From: Ascidia mentula
Lineage: Eukaryota > Chordata > Ascidiacea > Phlebobranchia > Ascidiidae
Direction of reading: 5' to 3'
DNA: 64,000 bases
Assembly (NCBI GenBank): GCA_947561715.1
Contig: OX387205.1
Coordinates: forward strand, 2,547,001 to 2,611,000
Shown here: positions 36,094 through 60,094 of the stretch, piece after piece
Position numbering within the stretch: the stretch's first letter is position 1
Layout: the number at the start of each line of letters is the position of its first letter
Program-made: the position numbers and the translations under genes
Notes under the pieces: model-generated
Seen by the model: the letters and a program-made list of their open reading frames with translations, nothing else
Told to the model about the DNA's origin: nothing
Databases searched by the model: none

Positions 36094-38764
36094 TCAAGAT
36101 CCGGATGGACCGGGTATTTCGGAACTGTCAACATTTCTTTCGGATATTAGTGGTTGTTCTTCACTTGCTTCACCTTCTACAGGGATAACAACATGTTTCT
36201 TCTCTTGAAATTTTTGGGATCCGGACAGGTTGAGAAACTCGACAGTAGAAGTCGAACGTTCCATTTCACCTTCTCCCACTTCCGTATGGTCAACATCAGA
36301 TGTATATCCTCCACCGCTTGAGGACTGGCCTCCTTGCCCAATGGTAGCCCCACCGCTTGAGGACTGGCCTCCTTGTCCAATAGCAGCCCCACCGCTTGAG
36401 GACTGGCCTCCTTGCCCAATAGCAGCCCCACCGCTTGAGGACTGGCCTCCTTGCCCAATAGCAGCCCCACCGCTTGAGGACTGGCCTCCTTGCCCAATAG
36501 CAGCCCCGCCGCTTGAGGACTGGCCTCCTTGCCCAATAGCAGCCCCACCGCTTGAGGACTGGCCTCCTTGTCCAATAGCAGCCCCACCGCTTGAGGACTG
36601 GCTTCCTTGCCCAATAGCAGCCCCACCGCTTGAGGACTGGCCTCCTTGCCCAATAGCAGCCCCACCGCTTGAGGACTGGCCTCCTTGTCCAATAGCAGCC
36701 CCATCGCTTGAGGACTGGCCTCCTTGTCCAATAGTAGCCCCACCGCTTGAAGACTGGCCTCTGTTTCTTAACTGTTTCCCCAACGTTTCTAGTTCAGAAA
36801 GGAATTTTGCAATCTTTTCATCCTTGTTGGTCTTGACAAAACTATTGTTAAAAAATTCAGTCAAATCTTCATTTGTAATATCTAAGAAAAAATGGAAAAA
36901 ACCAACATCACCCAATATTGCAGCCTTGGGCATATTATCTTTTAACTTAGTTTTCATATTTTGTTTTTGTTCTTCAACACCCTTCCGCAGTTTTGTAAAG
37001 GTTTTCACGCCCTTGCTTTTTCCACTCTGTTCGCAAAGAAACAAAAATAAGTCCAAGCTACAAGTTATGAAGCAAAAGGTGCAAAGGCTAATAATGTTCA
37101 GATGTAGGATAAAAGACAACAACACGACCTGTACGATAGTTATGACATACAGTGTGTTGAATGAGTTGTCGACACACTTGTAGGATCCATCGCACACAAA
37201 TTCTGTACTTGGGTATTGCAATACAATTGAGTATATTATAACTGCAATCGTTGCAAAGATAAAACTTCCTATGTTTCTCCAAAAGTAAACTGTTTTAAAG
37301 GAGTTGAGACAAGCTGTTTTCTTGAGGTTCGAGGGAAAGCTCGAAGTTTGGACTACTCTGGCGTAATTTTCCAGCAATTTGGCTGACTGTTACTATCTGA
37401 CGCAATGCAAGAAGTTGCCTGTACGCATCAACCATTCGCACATGGTCTACAAAGTCCGTTACCACTCTTTCCCCCACGTCGTTTGGTTTATCACTAAGAT
37501 TCACAAGCTGCAATTCCGCTATTTTGTTTCTTAAAGATTCAAGACGTTCTATAATATTAAGTTTATCAATATTATTTGAAAAGAATTCAAAATCTGGCAG
37601 ACTTCCACCCCAAAATCCAAAAAATGATTTTCCAAGTTTTGATAAATCTACTTTCCTTAATTTTTCAATAGTTTGGATTTCATGACACCGCCAGTAAGCA
37701 TGATCAGCGCGTACGGTGGCATGGTGCAAGTTCTCTAAAGTCAGTAGTTCCTCACTGTTTTTTTGCAACTTTATCAGAAAAATCGCAGCAACTTGGATTT
37801 CTTTAAGGATGCGAAACTTAATTGGGAGGCAATCTTTCTGCGTCAGTTTTCGGATGTTTTCAATTTGATATAATGCTAAAAGTTGTATCAAACTGCCAGC
37901 TAACTCAACACATGGTTTGGCTTCGAAACTGCTGTGCAGCGCTGTTTTTGGTGGTAATCTTAATGTCTCAATGGCAGGATGCTTGTGTTGAGCACAAGTC
38001 ACGTTTATTACACTCTGCAAAGAAAAGGACTTGTTTTGCTCTGAAACGGCTAGTAATTCCAAATTTTCTGTGGAAGGTTGTTTGAGGATATCTTCTTTTG
38101 TTCGGTTTCTTGGGGGATCTAATATCGTTTTAAATTCAAAATCATAAAAATTCAAGACATAATGGCTCACAACGTCATTTAGCAGTTGTGTTTGAAACTC
38201 TGGTGTCGAAGGAATGCCAGTGTTTTTCCATTTACCAAACTCTCTTGCAAAGCGTCTACATCTTTGTTTTTCCTGCGCAGTTAAGTCTGATACGTCGGAT
38301 GGGTCAGGGGATGTAACTAGAGTTATAAACTCATCAACAGACTTCTCGAAATTTGAAACAAGTTCAAACAGCTTATGAAACTGGGCAATCTCATTTCTTA
38401 CAGTGGAAATATGTTCCCATAGGTTCATTGCCATGTACAAGCAAATGGAGGACAGCACAAAGATCCACCAGAAGTTCGACTGAATGAAATTTGCCTCTGC
38501 TTTGCATTGTTCATTTACAAACAACATTTTGGGGTTTGTGAATGATTCAACATTGCTTCCATTGGCAAGTAAACAGTGCGATAGGGTAACATCACTTTCT
38601 TTACAAGGAAAACAATGCAATGAGTTGCTATCAGTTTTGTACAGCAAAAATATATTGGAAGCGACTATTGCCAACATTAAGTGCTTACGCATGGTTTCCC
38701 ACCATGGCGTCAAGCCATAAGTTGGCAACAAGTTGCCTGTAAGGTAAATATCACTCATTGACAT
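36094..38764 (-). pseudogene. LRRC8-like pannexin-domain channel protein without LRRs, copy A (frameshifted)
   Basis: Same architecture as the intact copy B at 57,323-60,094. It starts at MSMSDIYLTGN (ATG at 38,764), with PWWETM before TM1, loop-1 cysteines HCFPC, SHC and EQC, TM2, a long cytoplasmic loop, TM3, the C-x5-C loop and TM4, then a repeat tail. The 5' frame runs to 37,295 and the 3' frame from 37,377 to 36,094. Relative to copies B and C, five bases are missing near 37,300 (between the loop and TM3), which shifts the frame. The tail has 12 units of the 39-bp repeat. The rest is uninterrupted, so the lesion is young, polymorphic or an assembly error. It is single-exon, as LRRC8 coding regions usually are. 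The LRRC8 assignment rests on motif order and cysteine pattern read by eye. Confidence 0.65.
36305..36765. repeat. 39-bp coding minisatellite, copy A (12 units)
   Basis: Twelve near-identical 39-bp units encode GQSSSGGAAIGQG on the minus strand. Unit length is a multiple of three, and other frames, including antisense ones, are open too; the long antisense frames rich in PPLEDWPPCPI are shadows. Confidence 0.95.
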
Positions 38765-39980
38765 AACGAGTAAAATTTGCCGTTCCTCAAATAGTTTAAT
38801 GCAGATAAACAAGCATCACAAAATTACTTTGCCATCTAAATCTAATAATCTTTTTTTTCAAATTTGTCTAATTCAGCATCAATGCTTCTGCAAATCAAAC
38901 AAATGGTTTAGTGTTTGTTTCGTCCAATAGATTTTTATACACATCACAGATAAACCAACATACACAACAATCTTGATTACATAATGTAAAGACGACAAAC
39001 CTAAAATCACGTCATTCAGAAACGTCCAATCGTATGCAAGTTTTTCTTTGTGTACTTTTTCTTTGGCTCAACTGTTTTGAAACTCATATAAAAAAAACGC
39101 GTTGTGCATATATCCCCCTTTTCAGTCCGTTTCATTTTGTCATTAACACAAATTTGTGTGTACCTGTATTTACAATTTAGTAATAAAGTGTGGGCATTGT
39201 TACTTGCGTTATTGTGGCCTGCAAACCTTGACAAACCAATTACCTAACCCCGGTAACAATCCTCACCAGAAACCATTGCAAAATAAAAACGGGTGAGAAC
39301 AAATTACTACTACTAACTCATGCTGCTATTTGAATCGGCCAACGAGGCTAACACTCTTGCTGATACAGCACTTCGCGCTTCACTGGCATTCAAAGAACTT
39401 CTACCAATCAAGTCGACGCAATATTAAAATGTCACACATTTTTTGCTTTTTGTTGCAAAACTCCTTGACAATCAAGTAAAGCACGCCTGCTTAATTTTGC
39501 TACAAAAGATAATATTAATAAGGATATGGCATCCGCAGTTTATAGAGACGTATTGTGCCGTTGGACGTAATGAGTGAATTTCTGAACCCCGTTGCGTTCT
39601 TCTAATATTGTTTACGGGCAAACCTGCTCCATCGCAAGCAATTTGTAAAGTATTTATAGACGTATTGCAAACTTTAACGCTTTAATTGGTGTGCAGGGGT
39701 TACCCATGCATTAAGTACGATTTATGAGCGCCGTCTCCACCGATGGGTATTTTTGCTTTGTATCACATTGGTCGTTGTGACGTTTTTACGCTTAAATAAT
39801 TAATTACTCTGTCATAATGTGCTGATATCATATAAACATCAAATTGTGTTGGCAAAGTGGTATTATACCATTCCTCTTTATTTTTATTACGGCTAATTGT
39901 GTAAGGAGTAAATCACTCGACCAGCTGTTTGGTTTTCGAACCAAATGTGTAGTATTTTTAGCTTGTTTCTGGTAGCGTGA
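38765..39980. other. 5' flank of channel gene A
   Basis: Conserved with the 5' flanks of copies C (43,552-44,200) and B (60,095-61,300). The shared part likely holds the promoter and 5'UTR. No TATA box or exon can be assigned with confidence; the short frame at 39,016-39,234 is not specific. Confidence 0.4.
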
Positions 39981-40197
39981 TCAAATGCCTAATACTTTAC
40001 TTTTTCTGGTATCAGGCAACAGTGAACCTTCGACGAGATTTACAAAATGCTGACCAAGATCACAACACTTTTCTTTACTACATACGATAGTTGCTGTATA
40101 TGAGTTTCCCTGCCCTTTTATTGCACCGTAATGGGGATTCTGGAATGCCAAAGTATATTTGCTGTTTGACACTTTGGCAATACATATCGCATGTCCA
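39981..40197 (-). CDS. Conserved exon-like ORF upstream of channel gene A
   Basis: Open frame from a possible acceptor CTGTTAG|T (exon edge 40,197) to a TGA at 39,981; a donor-like AAAAA|GTAAAG lies just before the stop. It contains KYTLAFQNPHYGAIKGQG, SYTATIVC and CSKEKCCDLGQ. Against the sister exon at 61,308-61,524 there are two base differences in 217, both synonymous, while flanking DNA differs more. The pattern of a hydrophobic strand, Tyr-Gly, then T.T-I-x-C is loosely like a mannose-6-phosphate-receptor homology (MRH) domain, but that is a guess. It could be an exon of a separate gene or an upstream exon of the channel gene. Confidence 0.35.
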
Positions 40198-41307
40198 CTA
40201 ACAGCACATTATAAACCGCAAGAAGAACTTGTCCTCTTTGGATATTTTTAAGTACTTTATCCATGCCTACCTCTGCAGACATTACTGCTAATGTACATTT
40301 AATGCTTCAGGTGTGTTGTTATAATGATAGGCCACTACTGCTTCATAGAAAAAGCTTAGCAAAGCGACAGACAAAAAGGAATTGACAAAGCCACCGGATC
40401 GAGCATGTAAATAGCATTTGGCAACACCGAACTGCGTTAACCTAGCATTACCACAGACGTCGCTAGTGACGTAACAGTATGGTTATTTTGCTCACATTTA
40501 TGATAATAATTGTCTAGTTCTTGCATTTCTCCCCCGCCAATTCGTTAGCCGAACACAAAACCGGCTTTTAACGGGACAAAGCCGAACACAATATACTTGT
40601 TCGGCGAAGAATAGATGAACAAAACACAATTAACCACACGAAAACATATACATACATACGTTTGTGAAAAGAACAACACACAATAATGCAAACAGGAAAA
40701 TACAAGCATGCAAATTTACTAGAATCACCTTCTGGGCCCTTCCTTACATTATTTCACAGCAAACCAGAGAGTGAACGCGAATATTTTGCTACTTTCTATC
40801 GCGATTTGAAGGACAGTTTTAGCTTTTTATTAGGGGTGTTAAGTGATCTGATTAGTTAGTGGTGGTGTCGAAGGGTTTGATTGATGTCACGGCGAAAAAT
40901 ATGTAACCAAAACACATGTTTTGGATTTATTTTGTTGTGAATCACTTGCCTGTGTGTTCTATATGCCAAATATTAGCCTAAATCTGGGTCTTAACAATAT
41001 TATATATGATCGATCAGAAATCCTAGTTGATTAACGCATTTAACATATAAGATCGCACGTGAGTTCTAATTGTTGTGTTTCCTAACCTGACTTTGAATGG
41101 AAACGTGGTGCGAACACTACAAAAAATATTTATTTTATCACGATCAATTTTGGATACACTTTTAACACACGCAATGATACCAACGCGAAACTAAGTGAAT
41201 TTGAAGACACCCAATCGCTTACTGAGCTGCGCCGACATATTTTTGGACATATTTTGAAAACACTATACACTGCGTTTATCGCTGGTGACGTAACCATATG
41301 GTTATAT

Positions 41308-43551
41308 TCAAGATCCGGATGGACCGGGTAATTCGGAACTGTCAACAATTATTTCGGATGATAGTGGCTGTTTCTTCACAGATACATATTTCTTCTTTTG
41401 AAATTTTTGGGATCCGGACTGGCTGAGTAACCAAGTATCAGCTCCACCTCCAGAAGACTGGTCTTCTTGCCCAGTATCAGCTCCACCTCCAGACAACTGT
41501 TCTCCTTGCCCAGTACCAGCCCCACCGCTTGAGGTCTGGCCTCTGTTTCTTAACTGTTTTCTCAACGTTTCTAGTTCAGGAAGGAATTTTGCAATCATTT
41601 TATCCTTGTTGGTCTTGACAAAACTATTGTTAAAAAATTCAGTCAAATCTTCATCTGTAATATCTAAGAAAAAATGGAAAAAACCAACATCACCCAATAT
41701 TGCAGCCTTGGGCATATTATCTTTTAACTTAGTTTTCATATTTTGTTTTTGTTCTTCAACACCCTTCCGCAGTTTTGTAAACGTTTCCACACCCTTGACT
41801 TTTCCACTTCGTTTGCAAAGCAACAAAAATAAGTCCAAGCTACAAGTTATTGCACTTGAACAAAAAATTGTGCAAAGGATAAAAATGTTCAGACATAGGA
41901 TACAAGACAACAACACGACCTGTACGATAGTTATGACAATTAGTGTGTTGAATGAGTTGTTGACACACTTGTAGGCTCCATCGCACACAAATTCTGCACT
42001 TGGGTTTAACAATACGTATATTAAGTATATTATAACTGCAATCGTTGCAACGATAAAACTTGCTATGTTTCTCCCAAAGTAAGCTGTTTTAAATGACTGG
42101 AGTTGGGACACGCTGTTTTCTTGAGGTTCGGGGACAAGCTCGAAGTTTTGACTACTCTGGCGTAATTTTCCAGCAATTTGGCTGACTGTTACTATCTGAC
42201 GCAATGCAAGAAGTTGCCTGTACGCATCAACCATTCGCACATGGTCTACAAAGTCCGTTACCACTCTTTCCCCCACGTCGTTAGGTTTATCACTAAGATT
42301 CACTAGCTGCAATTCCGCTATTTTGTTTCTTAAAGATTCAAGACGTTCTATAATATTAAGTTTATCAATATTATTTGAAAAGAATTCAAAATCTGGCAGA
42401 CTTCCACCCCAAAATCCAAAAAATGATTTTCCAAGTTTTGATAAATCTACTTTCGTTAATTTTTCCATAGTTTGGTTTACATGACACATCCTGTAAGCAT
42501 GATCGGTGTCATAGAGCAATTTCTCTAGTTCCTTACTGTTTTTCAGCAACTTTATCAGAAAAATCGCAGCAACTTGGATATCTTTAAGGATGCTAAACTT
42601 TAACTTAATTGGGAGGCAATCTTTCTGCGTCAGTTTGCGGATGTTTTCAATTTGATATAATGCTAAAAGTTGTTTCAAACTGCCAGCTAACTTATCACAT
42701 GTTTTGGCTTCGAAACTGCTGTGCAGCGCTGTTTTTGGTGGTAATCTTAATGTCTCAATGGCAGGATGCTTGTGTTCATCACAAGTCACGTTTATTACAC
42801 TCTGCAAAGAAAAGGACTTGTTTTGCTATGAAACGGCTAGTAATTCCAAATCTTCTGTGGAAGGTTGTTTGAGGATATCTTCTTTTGTTCGGTTTGTTGG
42901 GGGTTGTAATATCGTTTTAAAATCAAAATCATAAAAATTTAAGGCATAATGGCTCACAACGTCATTCAGCAGTTGTTTTTGAAGCGCTGGTGTCGAAGGA
43001 ATGCCAGTGTTTTTCCATTTACCAAACTCTCTTGCAAAGCGTCTACATCTTTGTTTTTCCTGCGTAGTTAAGTCTGATACGTCGGATGAGTCAGGAGATG
43101 TAACTATAGTGATAAACTCATCAACAGACTTCCCGAAATTTGAAACAAGTTCAAACAGCTTTTGTAACTGGGCAATCTCATTTCTTACAGTGGAAATATG
43201 TTCCCATAGGTTCATTGCTATGTACAAGCACGTGGTGAGCAGCACAGAGATCCACCAGGAGTTCGACTGAAAGAAATTTGCCTGTGCTTTGCATTGTTCA
43301 TTTACAAACAACATTTTGGGGTTTGTGAATGATTCAACATTGCTTCCATTGGCAAGTAAACAGTGCGATAGGGTAACACCACTTTCTTTACAAGGAAAAC
43401 AATGCAATGAGTTGCTATCAGTTTTGTACAGCAAAAATATATTGGAAGCGACTATTGCAAACATAAAGTACTTACGCATGGTTTCCCACCATGGCGTCAA
43501 GCCACAAGTTGGCAACAAGTTGCTTGTAAGGTAAATATCACTCATTGACAT
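41308..43551 (-). pseudogene. LRRC8-like pannexin-domain channel protein without LRRs, copy C (one nonsense codon)
   Basis: Starts at MSMSDIYLTSN (ATG at 43,551). TM1, the CxxC...C...C loop and TM2 are intact in the first frame (to 42,826); the second frame (42,807-41,308) covers the loop helices, TM3, C-x5-C, TM4 and post-TM4 region. The two are in the same phase and separated by a TAG where copies A and B have GAG, just after LLAVS. The tail has only three degenerate repeat units (QTSSGGAGTGQG, QLSGGGADTGQ, QSSGGGADTW) and lacks the linker seen in A and B. It is otherwise uninterrupted. It is either a recent pseudogene or a case for testing stop-codon polymorphism. Confidence 0.65.
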
Positions 43552-45400
43552 AACGAGTAAAACTTGTGGTTGCTCAAATAGTTTAAAACAGATAAACAAC
43601 TGTGTCACAAAATTACTTTGTTATCTAAATATAATGATCTTTTCTTTCAAATTTCTCTAATTCAGCATCAATGCTGCAAATCAAACAAATGGTTTAGTGT
43701 TTGTTTCGTCCAATAGATTTTTATACACATCACAGATAAACCAACATACATAACAATCTTGATTACATATTGTAAAGACAACAAACCTAAAATCACGTCA
43801 TTCAGAAACGTCCAATCGTATGCAAGTTTTTCTTTGTGTACTTTTTCTTTGGCTCAACTATTTTGAAACTCATATAAAAAAACGCGTTGTGCATATATCC
43901 CCCTTTTCAGTCCGTTTCATTTTGTCATTAACACAAATTTGTGTGTACCTGTATTTACAATTCAGTAATAAAGTGTAGGCATTGTTACTTGCGTTATTGT
44001 GGCCTGCAAACCTTGACAAACCAATTACCTAACCCCGGTAACAATCCTCACCAGAAACCCTTGCCAAATACAAACGGGTGAGAACAAACTTCTACTACTA
44101 ACTCATGCTGCTATTTGAATCGGCCACGAAGCTAACACTCTTGCTGATACAGCACTTCGCGCTTCACTAGCATTCAAAGAACTTCTTCCTGTCAAGTCGA
44201 CAAGTCTCGTTGAGCTTGAGGAATTTAACTCGCTGTGTCTGAAACGTTATTGAAGAATTTGATTTCCCAGCCCAGTGGTCCAGCGGGTGAAAAGTTGTAT
44301 GCTCAGCAACCTAAAGGCATATGGCATTGAATGTACTTCGTACACACATGTTTTTGACAAATCGCTATTAGGCTTGAGTGTCGCTGTGAATTAAAATGAG
44401 ATGCATATCTTTTAAGTATCAATTGAACAAAAGAATAAATTCGCCTCACCCTGCGTTTGTTGACAAATTTATGGTCGACATTGATACAAGAGTAGAAGAT
44501 CCAAATATAAAATTATGTATACGCTTGCGTGATTATTTTTCTGCAAACCCATCCAAACCTGAGCTGAATTTCCAAACACCCTTCAGCACCAATAGGGACA
44601 AAACAAAATTGCTTCCAAAATTCCTCAAAAAGCATCAGCAACTGCCGACGCTTTTGTGTGCATTTATCCGTTATAAAAGCGTGATACCTGCACGTCAGGC
44701 TGCTTAAGATTGTTTGGTAGAAGATCGCATATCAGAATTTCTATTTAAGTTTCCAACGGGAAATGCCTTTCTTTGGTCCTGTTTCATTGCTGGTTACAGA
44801 GCAACCGGTAATGCACAAGTGTCATTACGGTGGAATCAGTGTTACTAGTGCCAATTTAGGCATTCTTTAGTGTGATTTTGGGTAAAGCTATTTGAAAGTT
44901 TTAACTTTACGAAAGTTGAACAAGCCGGCATCTCGTCTACACATTTAAGTCCAAATATAACTTCGGGGCAATAACAAAATACCAACCATGCGCCTTGATA
45001 AATTGTAACTCGTGTTATTCTGCGAAAGAGTAGGTTTAGAGGGAGTTTTAAATTTTCCATTCTGTTGGAAGATGGAAATAGGAACGCTTGTTCAATGAAA
45101 ATGGTCAACAGCATTGCTAAAGTGAAGTCATTTTTCCGGCATGAAACAATACACAAGCTGTAAGTTTCCGACACATACTGAAACTAATACAATGTAGTTA
45201 GCTTGGTAAAACCTGTAAGTGTCGGTTTCAAAAAGCAGTCATTTTTGGTGATGAAAGATGCTGTATTAGTATTAATCATTTTTTCAGTTTTTGGTTTTCT
45301 GAGTAAGTCAGATAAACTTTTCGGTTTTCTAAGTACATCTGCGTGCCGAGAAAAACTGTTATTTCTTTCTAATGACAGCAATAGCTGAAGTGGTCGAGTG
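43552..45400. other. Channel-gene flank and unique spacer
   Basis: 43,552-44,200 is homologous to the 5' flanks of copies A and B and ends abruptly near 44,200. The rest is unique here. A 103-codon plus-strand frame at 44,396-44,707 has no recognisable domain, and no repeat is apparent up to 45,390. Confidence 0.4.
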
Positions 45401-45649
45401 CAGTGACGTAGCCAGGCCGAAAAGTTTGGTGGGAGTCCAATCTTAGATGGGTTTAAAGAGAGTTAAAGTTTTTGGTTCAAAACATTGCTTTACGAAGCAG
45501 AATGATTTGGCGCGCTTAGCGGCGGGGTCTGTGGCCCCTGTGGCCCCTTTGGCCCCTTTGGCCCCTTTGGCCCCTTTGGCCCCTTTGGCCCCTTTGGCCC
45601 CTTTGGCCCCTTTGGCCCCTTTGGCCCCTTTGGCCCAGCTACGCCATTG
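45401..45649. mobile_element. MITE carrying an expanded 9-bp minisatellite
   Basis: Inverted termini CAGTGACGTAGCCAGGCC and GGCCCAGCTACGCCATTG. Near the right end a GGCCCCTTT unit is repeated about eleven times (45,530-45,635). The copy at 28,775-28,926 has a single comparable unit. No convincing target duplication. Confidence 0.6.
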
Positions 45650-45882
45650 GTTAAGTAGATCCTTGGCAGTTAAACGCACCTTTTTGCATGTTGCTGCCAG
45701 CCAGACAAAGTGCGCTGCCTTTTTTGCACAAGACGATTCGGTTGATTGCTTGGTTTCAGAACGCGCGGTAGCTTTGTGATGGAAAATACTCTACCCGACT
45801 TTCGTGTGGTGCCTGACCATCATTTTTCCATTTCATTGCTGCGAAAAGGTAAAACAAACATGACAAATTACGTTGGATTTTT

Positions 45883-46650
45883 CCACAAGCGAACGGCTTG
45901 GTGGAGGGATTTCATCGCCATTTAAAGAGCGCGTTGATGGCGCGTCTAACTGACTCCAATTGGTTGGACGAGTTACCGTGGGTGTTACTTGGTGTTCGTA
46001 CCGCACCCAAAGATGACCTGCAGGCCTATTCCGCGGAGCTTGTTTACGGTACTACTTTGACCGTTCCTGGTGATTTTATTGCCCCTGCAGGCGACTCCAC
46101 CGTCAAGTTTTTGCCGTCATTGCGGGACACATTGCAACGAATTTTGCCGCAGCCGATGTCACGTCACGCCAACCTTCGGCCGTCCGTCCCTTCCTCGTTG
46201 AGAACCAGCCCATATGTGTTCGTTCGTTGCGACGTTCATAGACCTCCGCTGACCAGACCATACGATGGCCCGTACAAGGTGTTGCTAGCGTCGGACAAAA
46301 CTTTCACTTTGGACATTAGAGGTCGTTCACAAACGATTTCGATCGACCATCTTAAGCCGGCTCACGTCGACATTACGGTACCAGTTCCAGTTGCCGTACC
46401 CCCAGCGAGAGGCAGACCACGGCGCAATGTACGACCACCGCAACGCTATTCAGCGTGACACTTGCCCGCTTCTGGAGGGGGGTCCTGTGGCGACCGAACT
46501 GTAGTGTTCGCCTGTGCATTGAAGCGTGCTATTGCCTTTTTCCCGTGTCGCGATTGCCGCCTTATATACTCGTGTTTATTGTGTTGCTCGCCCCTTTCTA
46601 ACTCTCGCAATAAAGCATCAACCGCTTTCATACAGTATTTCTTTTTGTTG
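45883..46650 (+). mobile_element. Fossil Ty3/gypsy LTR-retrotransposon fragment (integrase end and 3' LTR)
   Basis: The fragment holds the C-terminal part of an integrase, recognisable from ANGLVEGFHRHLKSALMAR and LPWVLLGVRTA, ending near 46,458. A polypurine tract follows, and a probable short 3' LTR starts TGTGGCGACC near 46,486 and ends around 46,640. The gag, protease, RT and 5' LTR are absent, so it is a truncated relic. Age cannot be estimated without a second LTR. Confidence 0.8.
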
Positions 46651-47514: not shown

Positions 47515-49170
47515 TTATGTTTTCCTGACCGATGGATCTCGTTGAGGCTCTTCTATTTCCATAGCAACAGGTTCGAATCCTTTCACGTTTTTTGATCTAG
47601 TTTTCTTTTCGTGCTTGTGCTTTGTATCCTTTAACTGGCCGCTCGCTTGGGGTGTTGTTTTATTTCCTAACCTTTCCAGTGCTGGTAGGAACTTTGCAAT
47701 CTTTTCATCCTTGTTATTCTTGACAAATTTACTGTTCAAAAATTCGCTGATATCTTCATTGGTGATATCAAGGTAAAAATGGAAAAAACCCAAATCTTTC
47801 ATTGATGCAGCAGAAATCATACCTTTTTTTAATTTTATGATTATCTCTTGTGCTCTTTCTTCAATACTTTTACGAAGCGTTCTAAAAATTTCTGCTTCCT
47901 TAGTCTTTCCGCTTTGTTCGCAAAGCAACAAAAACAATTCCAAGCTACAAGTTATTGTGCTCAAACAAGGACCGAATTTTGCAGAAAGGACACCGCAAAT
48001 CAGACATATCACAAGTGACAAACAAACCTGGACAACAGCAATAACATACATTATGTTAAAAGAGCTGTATATGCACGTGTATGTCTTGTTGCAAGTAAGT
48101 GCCTCACTTGTGCTTTGGTATGTTAATAATGAGATGTATACACCAGCTATTATGAGTGCATTTGCAAGACTGATCGCGTTTCTAATAAAGTAAGCATTTA
48201 GAAGGACATGTTGGAGCTGTCTTTTGCTCTGGTCAACGACTACATTACTCTCAGGTTCTTGAAAAGTATGAACTAATTTTCTAACTGTTACAATCTGTTG
48301 CAGTGCAAGAAGTTGTTTATATGCTTCAACCATTCGGACACGATCCACTAAATCCTGATCTGTGTTTGTAAAATCTTCAGTGTCTGTAAAATCTTCAGTG
48401 TCATAAATTTTACTTAGCTTTTCTAGTTGGTCTTCTGGGATAAGATCTCTTATTGTTTCAAGATAAGTAAGGTGTTTATCCAATTTTTGCATGATATCAA
48501 CGAAATTTACTGTTTGGTCTTTATTTGTACCAAGCCAACCAAATCCATTTCTTTTCTGACTAATTTGTTCCAGTTTCTTCTTGGTTTCATTTTTTCGTTG
48601 TTCGAAGTAGTTGTGCAACTGTTCTCCCGTTACTTCATATATCTCATCAATATTTGGTGAGAAAGTTTTAGGAAAACCACGCAATGATTCTAAACTTTGA
48701 AGTTCTTCACTGTTTTTACATAACTTTATTAAGCAAATTGCATCAGCTTGTATCATTTCAAGAATGTGAAGCTTTTTTTCTACTGATTCAACCATTCCGT
48801 CATTTAGCTTGCGAATATTCTCAATCTGGCGCAAAGCCAGAAGCTGCCTCAAGACTGAACATGATTCACGACTACGAGGGATTCTGTGTAGTTTATTGAG
48901 ATTGCGCAATGCTCTATGAGGTGGTAATGTTAATGTCTTAGTATCAACAGGTGGTTCGTTTTCGCCATTAAATTGTGTTGTACTCTTTCTTGGCGGTGAT
49001 GTTGATGTCTCAACTTCAGCAGGTGGCTCGTTTTGGTGATTGCAAACTTTTTGTTATCAACGTGTCCAACTCAAATGACATATCTCCTTCCAACACATCC
49101 AGCAATTTCAGATTTTCTTCATGAGGTTCTCCAACTAAATTATTCACTGAGGTAAATTCGTTCCCGTTAT
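47515..49170 (-). pseudogene. Diverged LRRC8-like channel paralog D, lacking the first two TM segments
   Basis: The main open frame 47,515-49,053 (first ATG at 48,909) aligns with copy B from about residue 250 to 675: QLLALRQIENIRKL, a second KQLLALQQIVTVRKL, TM3, TCNKTYTC (C-x5-C), TM4, then LGFFHFYLDITNEDISEF. The tail is short and basic (KHKHEKKTRSKNVKG) with no minisatellite. Above 49,053 the homologous sequence continues in another frame (ENLKLLDVLEG...) for about 40 codons. Homology then ends at the hAT MITE (49,207) and the start of the duplicated block, so TM1, loop 1 and TM2 are gone. It is a truncated gene, though the remaining frame of 464 residues is clean enough that expression as a two-TM protein should not be excluded. 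Confidence 0.6.
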
Positions 49171-49636: not shown

Positions 49637-50769
49637 ATAATTAAAGTCGAATTCAGGAAACGCATCATAATGGCGCACTTATTTAGAAAACCGAATTAAA
49701 ACTGAAAATAGATTTTGATCACCAGGTATCATGATGAATAGTAATATGGCATCTTTTATTGCCAAAAGTGAAGGTCAAGGTCACTTTGCGTTTTGAAACC
49801 GGCACTTCGGCCCCCTAAAACACCTTACCGAACATATCCTAACCGAGCAAGATGTATTTGTACATCCAAACGATCTACCCATGCGAAACTGCCATTCTTT
49901 TCCTGACAACCGGCAGACAGTTTTTCACAGTCCAGTGGTTACAGGTTTTACCAAGCTTCCTGCATTGTATTCGCAAACTTATATGCACTGCCGACTTTCT
50001 TTGTGTATATATTGTTACACAACATAATTGAAGATCCTCGAAAAAGCAACATAACTTATCGTAACGATGCTTAACAAAATCCACTAATGCTGCAGCCAGC
50101 GGAAGTCTAACATACGTGTGTCGTTTACCCACAATCCAAATCAATACAAATAAAATACTTTAAATAATTCATCATTCCCCGGAAGTTGTGTAACAACCGT
50201 CACACGTCACTGTTGTGAGTCACCAATGTGTCACACTGTCCCACAGGAATACCTTGGCTTGTGTTCAACCATAGGTCGTTGGCCACGGCACACAGAAATC
50301 ATTGCAAGTATTTTGACAACAAGCTATGCATGGACTTTATACGTTTCAACAACTACCGCTAAAACATCCTCTCGGAGGGTGGACTTACGCCAGTATTGGA
50401 ACCGCTTTTCGTTCCACGTGATCGCGCCAGGCACTAAGCTCGATGACGTCATATGGCGCACGACAGGGAACGACGTTGCGTCAGGAAATTGGAAACGTCA
50501 ACCATTTCTCATGGGGGGCGCAAGCTATATTACTGAAAAACCCGCATGTTACTGTTACGCCACAAAAAGCATTGCGTCATAAAAACACTTTTTTGATGAC
50601 TCATATGTGTCGTCACCAACCGTTTATTCGTGACGTCACTTTCAGTTAAAATAAGCAAGCTAAAATTTATCCATATTATGTTTTTATCATGTTGCAGTGT
50701 TTAGTTAGCCAGCTATAACCGACACAGGGCCGTTACTAAAGGGAGGCGTTATAGAAAAAAGACTGCTCT

Positions 50770-50830
50770 AAGGCAGTGTTTCCCAACCGGTGGTACGCGA
50801 CGGCATTCCAGGTGGTACGCGAGCTAAGCG
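50770..50830. mobile_element. hAT MITE left-end fragment
   Basis: Shares the CAGTGTTTCCCAACCGGTGGTACGCG end with the complete 185-bp MITE at 30,123. The homology stops after about 60 bp, and no matching right end was found downstream. The sequence from 50,831 to 51,186 is unique and unassigned. Confidence 0.55.
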
Positions 50831-51186
50831 TTTTTTTTTTTGTTTTTCGGCCCCCTCTTTCCCAGAGAATCAGCCAAGCTCACTATAAAACAGCTGGAAA
50901 AACACACACAAACTATACGTAAATTTTAATGCTCAAATTTATTATCTGTGCTACATGCTAAGCTAGGCTGAAACAATGAAACTCCATAAAACCATCCCAC
51001 AACCCCTTCTTTAGGTACGCGAACACTAAAAGTAAAAACTTTGATTCTACTACAGTATCTGTGTATAAAGCAACATATGCACAAATATTGTAGTCGAATA
51101 CTCCCCCTTTACACTTGTCGCAACTTCACCGTACCATTTTGCAGGTTCGCCTCCAATTTACACTGAAAACTTTTGTAGTACAACAA

Positions 51187-53130
51187 TCGAAACGTTTGTA
51201 GCATGAAATTCTCGACAATTGCATTGGCTAGTTTGTTTGTATTAAAGATATATAAAACCGTCTGTTATGTCCCTAAGTTTATTGAAAGCCACTACGGTTC
51301 AGCTATTCAGAAGGTGTTGAGGAATATTGAGCGCCTTCACAGAAAGGCAGAGAGACAAAAATGCATCGGACTATTTACAGACTTGCATTTTGTATAAACT
51401 TCGACCAAAATTTTTATATTTTCAGCTCTACCAAACTGAAATTCAGCACTTGAGGAAAACATTTACTTTTAAAATGTTTTTGTTGGTTGGTGAGTTGCAC
51501 TTTAAAAGTCGGCTTTTGTTACAGTTAAAACAAATCGATATTGGCATCAGCCTCGCGTTCCTCGCTGTGCAAAGATTTCTTATCTATGACAGAAAACAAG
51601 AATGCGATAAAGTGTTGCGTCTACATCAGCACAAAGTAAGATCTCTAGACTACAACCCACCTTCCTGCCTGTCTCAGGTGGTTTTCAATCTTTTCAACCG
51701 CAAATTATCAGCGCCGTAAAGAAATGCACTGAGTAATGGATAGGAATTTTCGTTTTTTTCTCTGACGACTCAACATTTCCAAAATTCAAGTTGAATTTGA
51801 ATTTCTTTATAACGAGCTTAGGTGCCGTCTAGTCAGGGAGGTTTGTTTGGCCCTCAAACAAAAGTTGATAAGTTTTTACTCGCGTTACATCTCAACCTAT
51901 TTCTTTGAGCGCCGTAGAAATATTCATTGCATGCCGACAGCGGAACGAGATGCAGTTGACTCCCTTAGACGTGACAGATCTATTGTAATATGCAAACCTG
52001 ACAAAGGGAATAGTGTTGTCATATTGGAAAAATCATTTTACTTGTCCAAAATGTAACACATCCTATGGTAAACCAGTAAATTCAGAAGCTGTAAGGTCGA
52101 TGACAACATTTCTAATCGGGCCAAATTCCAAACTTTTCTTCGGAGCCTCAAACGCAGCAACTCGCTGGACGACGAAACTCCCAGGAAGATGTTTCCAACC
52201 TGAAGTCGAACCCCAATTCTATACGACCTCCCGAAAGTACACAAAGTGCCCCTTGAACCGTTACTTTCTTCCATTGGGTCCTTTAACCACCATTGCGCAA
52301 AGTGGTTGTCAGACAACTTGTCGTTCACTCGAGACCATCGAACTGTCATCAATGACACATTTCGTTTCTTTCTCAAATAAAGAAACAAACCTTAGGGAAT
52401 CAGACAATGGCAACTTTTGATGTAACCAGTCTATATTCATCAACATCCCGGTAACTTTCACGATTCAACTAATCCTGGACAAAGTTTCTGCTGTCGTAAC
52501 TGACTTTCAAGGTCTCAATAAGGATCAATTAAAGAAACGTTTGTCATGGTGAGTCTGCCACACAACCTTCCGGTTCAACGACAAAATGTATAGGCAAGTC
52601 GATGGCGTTGGAATGGGCTCACCGATAGCGCCTCTAACGGCTGACGTCTTTATGAACTACCTATAGTTGACACAGCCTTGGCCCGTACCAAATCACACCT
52701 TAAGCCCGACGTCATTCTCAGGTATGTTGACGATCTGTTTTTATCATTTTGCGTTAAGCCCACATTTTAACTCTTTTTAATCACTATAATCACACAGGAA
52801 TTAAGTTTACCCAAACGATGGAAAGTAATTACTCTATTTCATTTCTTGATGTACGCATTTGCAAGAAGGGGAGCTTTTTCGAAACAACAACCTTCAAAGA
52901 AACAACACACACCCGGCCTCTACCTAAATTGGAGAAGCTTCACCCATCTCAACTACAAGTGCAACATTGTCGATGCCTTAGTACACCGTGCATATGACAT
53001 ATGCAACTCATTTAAACTCGTGCACGAGAAATTTCGGGCAATAAAGACTACCCTGTGACGTAATGGCTACCCGATGGCTTTTATCGTTGCGTTTTCGCAT
53101 TCCTGCAAACGCGTCACACTCAATCCAGGG
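51187..53130 (+). mobile_element. Eroded Penelope-like element, right-block copy (N-terminal and RT part)
   Basis: Remnants of a PLE protein: an N-terminal helical region (LRNIERLHRKAERQKC), then RDRSIVICKPDKGNSVVILE, followed by the same RT remnants as the left-block copy, with LRYVDDLFLSF. It stops near 53,130, before the GIY-YIG domain that the left copy keeps. Several breaks make it non-coding. Confidence 0.75.
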
Positions 53131-53844
53131 TTAAAGAGACTTTTTTGTCATAAAAACCTCCCTTGGTCGCCGTGTATTTTTTATATTTTTAATTCTTTTT
53201 ATCGTGCGCAGTGCAGTTGATTTGTTTTTTTACCCTTTGTTTTTATCACGACAATTTCATTGATTATTTTGTTTGTATTGAATATTAACAAAACCGTTGG
53301 TTATGTTCCTAAGTCTTCTACTTAAATAAATTTAAACTTTGGAATGAAGATTCGGTTTTTGTGCAAATCGTCTACGTTGAGAGGCCGCAGACAGGATGTA
53401 CACAGTGTTTCTACCTGGAGGGTCTTATCAGTGCAGCTGTTGACTGTGGCACTGCACTAGCTTTTACACTAACATGCACACAGATTACTACTTTGTGGTA
53501 CGTGTACATAGTTGTTGCAGCATTGTTTTTTGGCGGGCTGGCATCGCTTGCTGCAACACGCGGTTACAAATTCAATGATAACCAGCTGTTGAGGAAGCTG
53601 CTGAGTTTGCGCGCAAAAACAATGGAAATTTCCTGTTTTGAAAGTAAAAAAAAAAACATTTACCACCAAACGGACACGTCAGGTATTTAGTTGGTGTTAG
53701 TGATTCAATCAGACAGTCGCACCGACCAATTGCAAGAAAATATTTTCAAAAAATTACCTAGTGTTCGTAATTTTGCATTGGAAAAAGTTGTTTGAGTCTC
53801 ATTTGCGTTGCAACTTGCAGAAAAATCAGAGTTGTTTTTTAAGA

Positions 53845-55524
53845 ATGTGGACACATGTTGTTTTGATTTTTTTCTGCCTCTGCCATGTTACATATTCTCA
53901 ATATGATCCCACTTTCTCGGGGTTTCCAGCCAGTTATCAACAGAATGGGAATCATGCTGAGCCAGAAACAGTAAGAAGTTCTTTAAACAAACCAAGATTT
54001 AAAATCTGACATTATAAACATTTAAATATTGGGATCTGACCAAAACGACAGATGCAAGCCTAGCGACAACTGTAACTTTCGTAATCACACAAAAAGGCTG
54101 TAGCTTTTTATCACAGGATCAGCCTTGCTTTTTATCAGGAATATATATTTCGCCCAGTGGGCATCTTCAGTTCCTTACAGTAAACACAATAAAACGATTT
54201 TTAAAAAAACGTCTGAAAAACAACAACAGTAGAGAATAACCCATTCTTTTTTGGAAGGAACTGAAGATGCTCATGGGGCGAAATATATATTCCTGATAAA
54301 GTCAAGATTTAAAACCCTTTTTTACGGTCATTGTTGTGTTTGTAAGTCGCATGCACTATGTATTATTCTCTATGACATCGTCCAAAACCAGTCCTTTCAT
54401 CAATCAAATTGCTTCTCAATTGTAAACAATGCAAAGGTTATTGTGATTCGGATGTTCAATTGATAGATTGAGTATTCCATCATATTAAAATCGTTTAGTT
54501 CGGTTCGTCGAATGCATTCGACCGTTGGTTTCCACACAGCTGACTTAGTTTCGGCTTGTAATTTCGTGATAATGACTAAATCTAAGCTGGGCACTTGCTT
54601 TACTGTAAAAAACCTTCTTTTTGTGACAGCATTCCGAGGAAAACCCATCGGGACGTGACGTTGCAACAACAGATGACGTCATCGCCCCAGCATAAAATAC
54701 AGCACTTATTCCCGAGAAAGTGAAGTCTTTCGCGACGAATGTCAATAAAAATTGAAAGAAAAAATGTTCCCAACAAATTTGCAGGGAGGATATTGTTATG
54801 GGAATAGAATGCTTGTGTAGAATCTTTATGACCAGGCACATATAAGATATTGGAAAAACCAAAGCACAAATCGAGTAGACGTCACCGATACGAAAGAGTT
54901 TTGAAACTCATTCATTTTCTCTTATTATTAAAGGGGCAAAAGTGCTGTTGATTAAGTCATTTATAGTTACCAAGTGAAGCCCGTATTTCTTGTAATATCC
55001 AGCCGTTTTTATGTAGGTCGGGATATGGTGTGATTTCAAAACACTTTCGCAACAAAACAAAGCCTTACATTCAAATAGTGAACAACTGAAAGATGACTTT
55101 CCCGGTTTATCATATTTTGTTTTCGATAATCACTAATCTCCTATATAAAAAATTGACCCGCGCCAAGCGAAATTGCCGAGCTTATATTACACATATATAA
55201 CTACAGCCTCGCATGGCTGACAAACTTATGAACTAGACTTTGTTGTAGTTTTAACACTTTAATGCCAGGTATTAACACATTGAGTTAAACAAGATCCAAA
55301 TAAGCATTAATGCAAAACGTGAAAACGAGTTTTTGTGCAAGAGATATTTTCCCCTGAATACGTTGCAGGTTTTGGTAACGAATGCACAAATGACGCCAGG
55401 CAATTGTAAGCATATTAGCAAAAAAATCAACGTTTTTATTAATGTTCGGTTTAAAGGAATAGAGCCAGGTGATAAAAATGATTCAATGTTGTATAGATTC
55501 TGTGAATCACGGCTGTTTGTATAA
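53845..55524 (+). CDS. Putative small secreted protein, two-exon model
   Basis: Exon 1 (53,845-53,970) encodes a signal peptide, MWTHVVLIFFCLCHVTYS, then QYDPTFSGFPASYQQNG and ends at ACA|GTAAGAAG in phase 0. A candidate exon 2 (55,369-55,524) begins after TACGTTGCAG in phase 0, reads VLVTNAQMTPGNCKHISKK and ends CESRLFV*. The joined product would be 93 residues, secreted, with two cysteines outside the signal peptide. Exon 1 is well supported by its near-perfect conservation in the left block; exon 2 is weaker, since the left block has a stop at its Cys codon. No family recognised. The intron contains the fold-back repeat at 54,130-54,300. Confidence 0.35.
54130..54300. repeat. Fold-back repeat, right-block copy
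   Basis: Inverted arms running through AATATATATTTCGCCC and a CTTCAGTTCC/GGAACTGAAG pair about 70 nt apart; the left-block copy is at 32,955-33,120. The remaining 54,300-55,330 shows no exon supported in both blocks. Confidence 0.5.
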
Positions 55525-55769
55525 CTTCAAGTTCCTAGTGAAGCAAAAATTTACATGTTATTTTAGAACTTTTTGTTAAATGTCTGCATGTGAAAAATCA
55601 GTTTTCACGCTTACTAAGCCTATAATAAACAGAAATGTTAAAAGTAATCCAGGTGAAATGCTACGCTAACCTTTATAGTCAGTTTACTTACAGCCGCTAA
55701 CGTACAAAGCATGACTTTACCTGCGATTCACAGCTTCGGCCAAGCGCCCCAATAGCCCTACAAGTATTA

Positions 55770-55940
55770 TGACAACCTGAGTTGCCCACAATAACCTGGT
55801 TTCCAAAACCGATGCGGCAAAAGACCACATAACACCCGGGATATCCCGGCCACGAATCCCGAACAGGTTTTTCTTGGTATCTGGGTTGAGCGCTTGACCA
55901 ATGTTGTAAATTGTACCTGCTTCGGTGCTTTTTATGCCAA
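55770..55940 (-). mobile_element. tRNA-like SINE-type repeat, right-block copy
   Basis: Sister of 34,590-34,745. The 91-codon open frame across it (55,717-55,992) is broken in the left block and is considered chance. Confidence 0.45.
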
Positions 55941-56419
55941 AATGTTTTAATCTTATTTTGAAGCTTGACAAAACTGCATATTGTAAACCCACCTCACCAG
56001 TAACATTCCTTGAAGTCTATTATAGTGCAGAAAAAATCATTTAATCTTGACTGAATCAGTTACTTATCAGTAATTATCCACAATACAACACTAATAGAAC
56101 AAAAAAAAAACAATACTAAAGTACTGCGGTTGACCTCTAACGGCTTTTGTCTTCTGAAACCATCACACGGGCATCGACCTTCGTTAATCTATCCACTATT
56201 AGAATCCCAAACAGGGTACGGGTTCCGAAACTCATCAATTTTGAACTGTTACTAAATGAGCAAAAAGTGTCACTGGTTACTTCAGTTGATTAGTCGATAG
56301 GTTTGAACATTAGCAATGAAACTCGATAATGTTATAAAATTTTGGTGTTTTTAAGTGGGTTGGTGGGGATATGGTGATTACAAGCCATTTAAGTTAAAAA
56401 TACTTTCGCAACAAAACAA

Positions 56420-56610
56420 AGCTTTTTCATGGTACCTGGGATGAGCACTTGACTGATATTGTCGACTGTATCTGCTTCGGTAGTACTCTCAATTTTTATG
56501 ACCACACCGGGGTTTGAACCCAGAACAACCTGGGCACAAATCCATATCAGGTTTTCTTCCTGATATACGGGTCGGGCGCTTGACCAATGCTGCCAATAAC
56601 CCGTCCGACA
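56420..56610 (-). mobile_element. tRNA-like SINE-type repeat, right-block copy
   Basis: Sister of 35,230-35,425, with the same A-box-like TTGGTCAAGCGCCCGACCCG and B-box GGGTTCAAACCCC. Confidence 0.5.
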
Positions 56611-57322
56611 GGCGGAACTCACAATAAATGGGAAAACAACTTTTACAACTATCTAGCCCCCATCTAACGTAAAAAGGACTTTCTAAAACCATTACACGGA
56701 GATCAATCTTCGTTTATCCAACCTCTACTAGAATCACCTTCTGGGTCCTTTGTTACATTATTTCACAGCAAACCATAGAGTGAACGCGAATATTTTGCTA
56801 CTTTCTATCGCGATTTAAAGGACAGTTTTAGCTTTTTATTAGGGGTGTTAAGTGATCTGATCAGTTATTGGTGGTGTCGAAGGGTTTGATTGAGTGTCAC
56901 GGCGAAAAATATGTAACCAAAACACATGTTTTGGATTTATTTTGTTGTGAATCACTTGCCTGTGTGATCTATATGCCAAATATTAGCCCTAAATCTGGGT
57001 CTTAACAATATTATATATGATCGATCAGAAATCCTATTTGATTAACGCATTTAACATATAAGATCGCATGTGAGTTCTAATTGTTGTGTTTCCTAACCTG
57101 ACTTTGAATGGAAACCCGATGCAAACACGACACAAATATTTATTTTATCACGATCAATTTTGGATACACTATTAACACACGCAATGATACCAACGCGAAA
57201 CTATGTGAATTTGAAGACACCCAATCGCTTACTGAGCTGCGCTGCGCCGACATATTTTTGGACATATTTTGAAAACACTATACACTGCGTTTATCGCTGG
57301 TGACGTAACCATATGGTTATAA

Positions 57323-60094
57323 TCAAGATCCGGATGGACCGGGTATTTCGGAACTGTCAACATTTCTTTCGGATATTAGTGGTTGTTCTTCACTTGCTTC
57401 ACCTTCTACAGGGATAACAACATATTTCTTCTCTTGAAATTTTTGGGATCCGGACAGGTTGAGAAACTCGACAGTAGAAGTCGAACGTTCCATTTCACCT
57501 TCTCCCACTTCCGTATGGTCAACATCCGATGTATATCCTCCACCGCTTGAGGACTGGCCTCCTTGCCCAATGGTAGCCCCACCGCTTGAGGACTGGCTTC
57601 CTTGTCCAATAGCAGCCCCACCGCTTGAGGACTGGCCTCCTTGCCCAATAGCAGCCCCACCGCTTGAGGACTGGCCTCCTTGCCCAATAGCAGCCCCACC
57701 GCTTGAGGACTGGCCTCCTTGCCCAATAGCAGCCCCACCGCTTGAGGACTGGCCTCCTTGTCCAATAGCAGCCCCACCGCTTGAGGACTGGCCTCCTTGT
57801 CCAATAGCAGCCCCACCGCTTGAGGACTGGCCTCCTTGCCCAATAGCAGCCCCACCGCTTGAGGACTGGCCTCCTTGTCCAATAGCAGCCCCACCGCTTG
57901 AGGACTGGCCTCCTTGCCCAATAGCAGCCCCACCGCTTGAGGACTGGCCTCCTTGCCCAATAGCAGCCCCACCGCTTGAGGACTGGCCTCCTTGTCCAAT
58001 AGCAGCCCCACCGCTTGAGGACTGGCCTCCTTGTCCAATAGTAGCCCCACCGCTTGAAGACTGGCCTCTGTTTCTTAACTGTTTTCTCAACGTTTCTATT
58101 TCAGAAAGGAATTTTGCAATCTTTTCATCCTTGTTGGTCTTGACAAAACTATTGTTAAAAAATTCAGTCAAATCTTCATTTGTAATATCTAAGAAAAAAT
58201 GGAAAAAACCAACATCACCCAATATTGCAGCCTTGGGCATATTATCTGTCAACTTAGTTTTCATATTTTGTTTTTGTTCTTCAACACCCTTCCGCAGTTT
58301 TGTAAACGTTTTCACGCCCTTGCTTTTTCCACTCTGTTCGCAAAGCAACAAAAATAAGTCCAAGCTACAAGTTATTGCACTTGAACAAAAAATTGGGCAA
58401 AGGAGAATAATGTTCAGACATAGGATACAAGACAACAACACGACCTGTACGATAGTTATGACAATTAGTGTGTTGAATGAGTTGTCGACACACTTGTAGG
58501 ATCCATCGCACACAAATTCTGTACTTGGGTTTAACAATACGTATATTAAGTATATTATAACTTCAATCGTTGCAACGATAAAACTTGCTGTGTTTCTCCA
58601 AACGTAAACTGTTTTAAATGACTGGAGTTGGGACAAGCTGTTTTCTTGAGGTTCGAGGGAAAGCTCGAAGTTTGGACTACTCTGGCGTAATTTTCCAGCA
58701 ATTTGGCTGACTGTTACTATCTGACGCAATGCAAGAAGTTGCCTGTACGCATCAACCATTCGCACATGGTCTACAAAGTCCGTTACCACTCTTTCCCCCA
58801 CGTCGTTTGGTTTATCACTAAGATTCACAAGCTGCAATTCCGCTATTTTGTTTCTTAAAGATTCAAGACGTTCAATAATATTAAGTTTATCAATATTATT
58901 TGAAAAGAATTCAAAATCGGGCAGACTTCCACCCCAAAATCCAAAAAATGATTTTCCAAGTTTTGATAAATCTACTTTCGTTAATTTTTCAATAGTTTGG
59001 ATTTCATGACACCGCCAGTAAGCATGATCAGCGCGTACGGTGGCATGGTGCAAGTTCTCTAAAGTCAGTAGTTCCTCACTGTTTTTTAGCAACTTTATCA
59101 GAAAAATCGCAGCAACTTGGATTTCTTTAAGGATGCGAAACTTTAACTTAATTGAGAGGCAATCTTTCTGCGTCAGTTTTCGGATGTTTTCAATTTGATA
59201 TAATGCTAAAAGTTGTTTCAAACTGCCAGCTAACTCAACACATGGTTTGGCTTCGAAACTGCTGTGCAGCGCTGTTTTTGGTGGTAATCTTAATGTCTCA
59301 ATGGCAGGATGCTTGTGTTGAGCACAAGTCACGTTTATTACACTCTGCAAAGTAAAGGACTTGTTTTGCTCTGAAACGGCTAGTAATTCCAAATTTTCTG
59401 TGGAAGGTTGTTTGAGGATATCTTCTTTTGTTCGGTTTCTTGGGGGTTCTAATATCGTTTTAAATTCAAAATCATAAAAATTTAAGGCATAATGGCTCAC
59501 AACGTCATTTAGCAGTTGTGTTTGAAACGCTGGTGTCGAAGGAATGCCAGTGTTTTTCCATTTACCAAACTCTCTGGCAAAGCGTCTACATCTTTGTTTT
59601 TCCTGCGCAGTTAAGTCTGATACGTCGGATGAGTCAGGAGATGTAACTATAGTGATAAACTCATCAACAGACTTCTCGAAATTTGAAACAAGTTCAAACA
59701 GCTTATGAAACTGGGCAATCTCATTTCTTGCAGTGGAAATATGTTCCCATAGGTTCATTGGTATGTACAAGAAAATGGAGGACAGCACAAAGATCCACCA
59801 GAAGTTCGACTGAATGAAATTTGCCTCTGCTTTACATTGTTCATTTACAATTAACATTTTGGGGTTTGTGAATGATTCAACATTGCTTCCATTGGCAAGT
59901 AAACAGTGCGATAGGGTAACATCACTTTCTTTACAAGGAAAACAATGCAATGAGTTGCTATCAGTTTTGTACAGCAAAAATATATTGGAAGCGACTATTG
60001 CCAACATAAAGTACTTACGCATGGTTTCCCACCATGGTGTCAAGCCATAAGTTGGCAACAAGTTGCTTGTAAGGTAAATATCACTCATTGACAT
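57323..60094 (-). CDS. LRRC8-like pannexin-domain channel protein without LRRs, copy B (intact)
   Basis: One exon, 923 residues from ATG 60,094 (MSMSDIYLTSNLLPTYG); the 16 in-frame codons upstream contain no ATG, and LRRC8 proteins also have about 20 residues before PWW. Layout: PWW at 20-22; TM1 about 28-43; loop-1 cysteines C51, C54, C64, C87, matching the CxxC-C-C pattern of LRRC8; TM2 about 98-116; a cytoplasmic loop of about 380 residues (about 120-150 in LRRC8) with two QLLALxQI helices near 293 and 452; TM3 about 502-522; C529-x5-C535; TM4 about 541-570; GDVGFFHFFLDITNEDL near 626-642, like the LRRC8 segment leading into its LRRs. Instead of LRRs, residues about 677-857 are 14 repeats of a 13-residue G/S/Q/A unit, then an acidic tail. 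Role inferred: subunit of a large-pore membrane channel of VRAC/pannexin type. A pannexin relative or an unrelated four-TM family is the alternative. Confidence 0.7.
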   Translation of the reverse strand: MSMSDIYLTSNLLPTYGLTPWWETMRKYFMLAIVASNIFLLYKTDSNSLHCFPCKESDVTLSHCLLANGSNVESFTNPKMLIVNEQCKAEANFIQSNFWWIFVLSSIFLYIPMNLWEHISTARNEIAQFHKLFELVSNFEKSVDEFITIVTSPDSSDVSDLTAQEKQRCRRFAREFGKWKNTGIPSTPAFQTQLLNDVVSHYALNFYDFEFKTILEPPRNRTKEDILKQPSTENLELLAVSEQNKSFTLQSVINVTCAQHKHPAIETLRLPPKTALHSSFEAKPCVELAGSLKQLLALYQIENIRKLTQKDCLSIKLKFRILKEIQVAAIFLIKLLKNSEELLTLENLHHATVRADHAYWRCHEIQTIEKLTKVDLSKLGKSFFGFWGGSLPDFEFFSNNIDKLNIIERLESLRNKIAELQLVNLSDKPNDVGERVVTDFVDHVRMVDAYRQLLALRQIVTVSQIAGKLRQSSPNFELSLEPQENSLSQLQSFKTVYVWRNTASFIVATIEVIIYLIYVLLNPSTEFVCDGSYKCVDNSFNTLIVITIVQVVLLSCILCLNIILLCPIFCSSAITCSLDLFLLLCEQSGKSKGVKTFTKLRKGVEEQKQNMKTKLTDNMPKAAILGDVGFFHFFLDITNEDLTEFFNNSFVKTNKDEKIAKFLSEIETLRKQLRNRGQSSSGGATIGQGGQSSSGGAAIGQGGQSSSGGAAIGQGGQSSSGGAAIGQGGQSSSGGAAIGQGGQSSSGGAAIGQGGQSSSGGAAIGQGGQSSSGGAAIGQGGQSSSGGAAIGQGGQSSSGGAAIGQGGQSSSGGAAIGQGGQSSSGGAAIGQGSQSSSGGATIGQGGQSSSGGGYTSDVDHTEVGEGEMERSTSTVEFLNLSGSQKFQEKKYVVIPVEGEASEEQPLISERNVDSSEIPGPSGS
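57534..58070. repeat. 39-bp coding minisatellite, copy B (14 units)
   Basis: Fourteen units from 57,546 to 58,053 at exact 39-bp spacing, two more than in copy A and eleven more than in copy C. Units differ mainly at one C/T site (CCTTGCCCAAT versus CCTTGTCCAAT on the plus strand), a synonymous change. Confidence 0.95.

Follow-up and report, generated by a model that had tools for sequence, protein, structure and literature searches.

Copy B, one of four related genes on the minus strand of a 64,000-nucleotide window from Ascidia mentula (contig OX387205.1), probably encodes a divergent large-pore channel subunit of the LRRC8/pannexin/innexin class. This assignment is based on its open frame, its cysteine pattern, its hydrophobic segments, selection on the part that it shares with a diverged paralogue, and a sub-threshold match of its N-terminal part to LRRC8. 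From these features we infer channel activity, oligomerisation, disulfide pairing, sidedness and gating. In our best reading, the place of the LRRs of LRRC8 is taken by a loop of 370 residues and a tail of Gly/Ser/Gln repeats. The four relatives, named copies A, B, C and D, lie between 36094 and 60142 of the window.

Copy B (57326–60094, minus strand, stop codon at 57323–57325) is a single exon of 923 uninterrupted codons, with its Met at 60094 and a product of 923 amino acids. An intron within B was considered and was not needed. Residues 1–120 (59735–60094, minus strand) make up the LRRC8-like part and contain a PWW motif, TM1, extracellular loop 1 with four cysteines (C51, C54, C64, and C87) and a sequon at N68, and TM2. 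Residues 121–490 (58625–59734, minus strand) form a long loop that is putatively cytoplasmic, a side predicted from the topology. TM3, a short loop with C529-x5-C535, and TM4 follow within residues 496–570 (58385–58609, minus strand), assigned from hydropathy and a low-confidence model. Downstream of TM4 there are ~115 residues, then a tandem array of a 13-residue (39-bp) unit (57540–58068, minus strand), and then a unique C-terminal tail that contains EEQPLI (57326–57539, minus strand).

Most of the residue-level features in the initial annotation were confirmed. Cysteines 51, 54, 64, 87, 529, and 535 were at the positions claimed, PWW was at residues 20–22 before TM1, and the loop between TM2 and TM3 was more than twice the length of that in LRRC8, with ~375 residues in B vs ~120 in LRRC8A. 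The C-terminus had been described as a 13-residue array; the array exists, but it is followed by the unique tail of ~70 residues. The description of four TM segments did not hold up as well, since TM1 was weak in a 19-residue Kyte-Doolittle window (1.14 vs 1.81 for LRRC8A) and no better than a stretch of the loop at residue 315 (1.27).

With the pattern used, we counted 13 full units of the array in B and 11 in A, while TRF reported 2.4 diverged units in copy C and had no row for an array in copy D. EEQPLI, which by its motif we take to be an acidic dileucine-type sorting signal, was retained in copy A and lost from copy C. Upstream of the ATG, copies A, B, and C had TTTGATTTGCAG in common at a distance of ~120–125 bp (found by eye and absent from the pattern-scan list), and this could possibly act as a 3' splice acceptor, either for an intron at the 5' end or for a trans-spliced leader. 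In A, B, and C, an AATAAA or ATTAAA follows the first base of the stop codon by 177–486 bases.

The N-terminal part makes the case for LRRC8 kinship of the family, which we consider suggestive and not established. A search of copy B with PF12534, as proposed in the initial annotation, gave the top Pfam model for residues 1–160 (E 0.02, 14.4 bits; runner-up ANK_LRRK2, 0.046) but fell short of the curated cut-off of 25 bits, which no match of copies A, B, or C reached, and PF12534 was not listed for full-length B, for which Pfam returned no usable hit. It was also the top model for residues 1–160 of C (E 0.036, 13.6 bits; runner-up 0.086), ranked second for B 1–315 (E 0.48, 9.9 bits), and was not listed for residues 1–160 of A, where the best model was Pho86 (0.04). 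Positions 18–74 of PF12534 aligned in register to B 20–77. PF12534 had 0 matches at E 0.001 in the 195.8 Mb and 79 contigs of the source genome, a count that is uninformative because 14 control genomes gave none either.

Profile and pairwise comparisons pointed in the same direction. With hhalign, the N-terminal part of the family aligned with LRRC8A/C/D across TM1, loop 1, and TM2 (P 6.6e-5) and the whole family profile gave P 9.1e-4, while P was at least 0.023 for the remaining 26 pairs out of the 28 with the family, reversed profiles among them. The accepted pair LRRC8-PANX1 gave 9.6e-4 as a control and LRRC8-CX43 gave 0.86. Smith-Waterman scores of B 1–150 were 60, 66, and 66 with LRRC8A, C, and D, and 0/300 shuffles reached them in each of six tests, whereas the score with PANX1 was 42 and was reached by 29/300 and 31/300. 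For B 1–690, the shuffles reaching the observed score numbered 4 and 2 of 300 for LRRC8A, 1 and 0 for LRRC8C, and 0 and 0 for LRRC8D. The N-terminal parts of A, B, and C scored 53–68 with LRRC8, compared with 55–63 for LRRC8-PANX1. A three-sequence LRRC8 HMM searched against 746 ORFs of the window (at least 40 codons) placed B (2e-4), A (2.1e-4), and C (0.013) ahead of the next ORF (0.59), and the ORF of D had a value of 6.2. Since LRRC8 was chosen by a reader viewing the same sequence, the E of 0.02, taken across the whole library, is to be preferred to the pairwise P as a measure. The LRRC8-like family of the initial annotation finds suggestive support across residues 1–120 in the PF12534 and hhalign results above, but its C-terminal half agrees with LRRC8 in topology only.

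An alternative reading is that the family is an unrelated, lineage-specific membrane protein whose first 120 residues resemble LRRC8 by chance, aided by PWW, CxPCK, and the hydrophobic stretches. Every LRRC8 match was sub-threshold with other Pfam models close behind, the C-terminal half had no match, and a harsher shuffle in 6-residue blocks, taking the best of the three references, reached the score of 66 in 19/4000 cases. PDB searches with family sequences listed LRRC8 in one of six (LRRC8D, E 2), and the sole entry listed by those with the N-terminal part was 3lmf, an unrelated protein (E 0.68 and 0.089). A chance likeness would nevertheless have to run in register across TM1, loop 1, and TM2, place PF12534 at the top of the Pfam models for two of three copies, and coincide with a loop-2 cysteine pair that lies outside the N-terminal match. 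We consider such an origin rather unlikely, though it deserves serious weight, and retain a divergent channel subunit as the preferred reading of copy B.

The gene family is real, and the initial annotation overstated both its copy number and the state of its copies. As that annotation had proposed, a block was duplicated: positions 29027–41091 (block 1, which holds copy A) are colinear with 49677–64000 (block 2, which holds copy B and extends to the window edge), and the matching pieces are 94.6–97.4% identical. Copy C is a further duplicate with 92.7% identity to A and 94.2% to B, and the duplications that gave A, B, and C were recent. At least four copies had been claimed, but only B has an open frame. 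Compared with B, copy A (36094–38764, minus strand) lacks 5 bp near 37300, a deletion that splits the frame just before TM3, copy C (41308–43551, minus strand) has a TAG at codon 242 (42826–42828) where B has GAG, and copy D (47515–48939, minus strand) is a diverged paralogue with 41% identity to B that covers approximately residues 266–669. When A, B, and C were masked and the window was searched by tblastn with B 1–300, the 12 best hits listed included no counterpart of TM1-TM2 upstream of D. Just upstream of D, a short stretch resembling B was seen by eye in a different frame. The fifth copy reported at the edge is 3' flank. This flank (63412–64000, 589 bp) is homologous to 40506–41091, and because the latter ends ~215 bp short of the stop codon of C, no coding part of a fifth copy falls in the window.

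With the frames of A and C broken and D partial, the cluster looks like a single candidate working gene surrounded by copies in decay. The duplication behind the proposed lineage-specific set of channel subunits was confirmed, but a working set was not, given that A, C, and D are each broken or partial. A more extreme version is that the cluster is decaying in its entirety and yields no working protein, with B as the copy that has not yet been broken. The defects in A, C, and D fit this version, as does the comparison of B with C, in which dN/dS by part was 1.23 and 1.14 and not distinguishable from 1 (Fisher P 0.69); the corresponding A-C values were 1.82 and 1.04. However, B is open across 923 codons, and A-B had dN/dS values of 0.47 and 0.63 with a mild non-synonymous deficit (Fisher P 0.037). 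Full units of the arrays in A (36311–36761) and B (57540–58068) also differed from the consensus mostly at synonymous positions, with 15 synonymous and 7 non-synonymous changes (15/22, pooled over A and B and not independent), which hints that the repeat peptide may be under selection. We think it unlikely that B belongs to a wholly decaying cluster.

The comparison of B with D covers only the part present in D, with the LRRC8-like N-terminal part outside it, and there dS was 1.56 and dN/dS 0.31. This dN/dS value shows old purifying selection on the shared part. Set against the values among A, B, and C, it indicates long constraint on the part shared with D and little constraint in the recent copies.

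Blocks 1 and 2 could also be two haplotypes of one locus that the assembler placed in tandem, making A and B alleles. Their colinearity and identity agree with this, as 94.6–97.4% is a level seen between alleles in highly polymorphic animals. On the other side, there is no N within the window, and synonymous divergence is much the same for each pair among the N-terminal parts of A, B, and C (dS 0.033 for A-B, 0.037 for B-C, and 0.030 for A-C) even though C lies next to A as a copy of its own; neither argument carries much weight. In the C-terminal parts dS was 0.091 for A-B and 0.041 for B-C. We regard misplaced haplotypes as improbable and continue to treat A and B as duplicated copies.

No LRR domain was found in copy B, in line with the initial annotation. 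Pfam listed no LRR family for the full-length protein at E up to 10, with filters dropping most matches >0.1, and the array and tail stand after TM4. The C-terminal half had no significant sequence similarity. Smith-Waterman scores of B 471–690 with LRRC8 were 32–35 and inside the shuffle range, and hhalign of the C-terminal half with LRRC8 gave P 0.079, with TM3, loop 2, and TM4 aligned in the register expected. This mismatch carries little weight because the C-terminal halves of the accepted pair LRRC8-PANX1 score just 38–48. AlphaFold models of B 1–684 (six rows) and of the C-terminal half (four rows) had very low confidence (pLDDT 33.6 and 43.5) and were too poor to lend support to a pannexin-class fold; the latter had a helix, a loop, a helix, and more helices, and we base no claim on either model. 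Using the C-terminal half alignment as the query, we obtained 110 and 192 pattern matches in viral and genome contigs, respectively, none of which was confirmed as a relative.

A post-TM4 helical stretch in the order known for LRRC8 had also been proposed, and this was not confirmed. Against the final 75 residues of the LRRC8A, C, and D sequences used, B 590–690 scored 28, 31, and 23, with shuffle means of 23–27, and the better match was found before TM3. When the loop (B 121–490) was compared with whole references, LRRC8D scored 61 (0/500 in both shuffles), with residues 436–477 (58664–58789, minus strand) tentatively matched to its post-TM4 segment. The loop scored 52 with LRRC8A (8 and 5/500), 52 with LRRC8C (5 and 5/500), and 44 with PANX1 (37 and 39/500). 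The QLLALxQI part recurred near B 285–310 with a score of 41, reached by 4 and 0 of 500 shuffles. The resemblance of residues 436–477 to the LRRC8 segment was also seen in a PDB search, but a search with B 420–490 alone listed eS30 and haloalkane dehalogenase and not LRRC8, and hhalign of the loop gave P 0.17, so we treat this stretch as a lead only. Taken further, it would describe a lineage-specific, rebuilt LRRC8 in which the post-TM4 helical segment was copied or moved into the loop (436–477, with a partial second copy at ~285–310) and the enlarged loop is a cytoplasmic gate that replaces the LRR ring in an LRR-free volume- or ligand-operated channel. We give this elaboration little credence.

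Compared with LRRC8A-E, the VRAC subunits that combine PF12534 (Pannexin_like) with LRRs, copy B likewise has PWW before TM1. B and LRRC8A both begin loop 1 with CxPCK and have four loop-1 and two loop-2 cysteines that fit three disulfides, a sequon after the third cysteine, NxW closing TM2, acidity close to position 6 (D5 in B beside E6), and hydrophobic segments in the same order. B differs from LRRC8 in having no listed LRR family, a TM2-TM3 loop about three times as long, shorter loops 1 and 2 with C-x5-C in loop 2 instead of C-x14-C, a post-TM4-like stretch before TM3, a repeat array and tail at the C-terminus, and a similarity under the family cut-off. Pannexins and innexins share with B the segment order, two cysteine-bearing extracellular loops, and the absence of LRRs, while the PANX1 sequence used carries two cysteines in each loop and B had no significant match in either half. 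That the family is of pannexin/innexin type and not LRRC8-like is very improbable. The C-terminal half and PANX1 did align at the register expected through EFVC and TM4 (score 44; 25/300 full and 95/300 local shuffles scored as high), but the N-terminal part scored higher with LRRC8 than with PANX1 (hhalign with PANX1, 0.037), loop 1 of B has four cysteines to the two of PANX1, and Innexin (PF00876) was not listed in Pfam scans of 12 family pieces at E up to 10.

As a channel subunit, copy B would contribute four membrane helices, and several subunits would surround one pore. The short N-terminus before PWW may fold into the pore, as proposed for LRRC8, and with D5 near the position of LRRC8 E6 it would line the pore; substitution of E6 is reported to alter permeation (PMC6120214). 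The two extracellular loops would form a cap held by three disulfides among C51, C54, C64, and C87 together with C529 and C535, and PMC6395065 describes three disulfides for the loop cysteines of LRRC8A. On the cytoplasmic side, the 370-residue loop and the helices after TM4 could build a vestibule in place of the LRRs, with the Gly/Ser/Gln array as a presumably disordered tail.

LRRC8 genes reportedly arose with the chordates, perhaps by the joining of a pannexin channel and an LRR domain (PMC5064130, citing Abascal and Zardoya 2012). A naturally occurring protein that has cap cysteines of the LRRC8 type but no LRRs would represent either the state before this fusion or a secondary loss, and it would be a natural test of the role of LRRs in gating. 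An LRR-free LRRC8 family was not described in the titles and abstract openings of the open-licence literature searched, which is a weak negative. Given the broken or partial state of A, C, and D and the sub-threshold kinship, the value of copy B depends on finding orthologues.

The remainder of the window contained several other features. Rfam at gathering thresholds found two tRNAs only. Two weak exon matches were below cut-offs, SHCBP_N at 3152–3421 (E 0.001) and EMC3_TMCO1 at 19246–19506 (E 0.00057). Block 2 carries an insertion of ~1.56 kb (61846–63408) that is absent from block 1 at 40506–40517. It has 420-bp inverted repeats (99.5%), a 15-bp repeated flank, and a GIY-YIG ORF at 62235–63149 (plus strand; PF01541, E 1.8e-5), and we take it to resemble a Penelope-type element. 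A nine-bp tandem array with 11.7 copies occupies 45532–45636, and an integrase-like retrotransposon ORF was recognized by eye at 45853–46458 (plus strand), where no Pfam family was listed. A GET4 homologue at 20705–21646 (minus strand) has an uninterrupted frame of 313 codons (PF04190, E 6.8e-59); vertebrate GET4 has introns, so this frame is either a retrocopy or a gene with few introns. A GT10 fucosyltransferase is represented by exons at 23467–25117 (minus strand; PF00852, E 5e-30; PF17039, E 5.7e-8).
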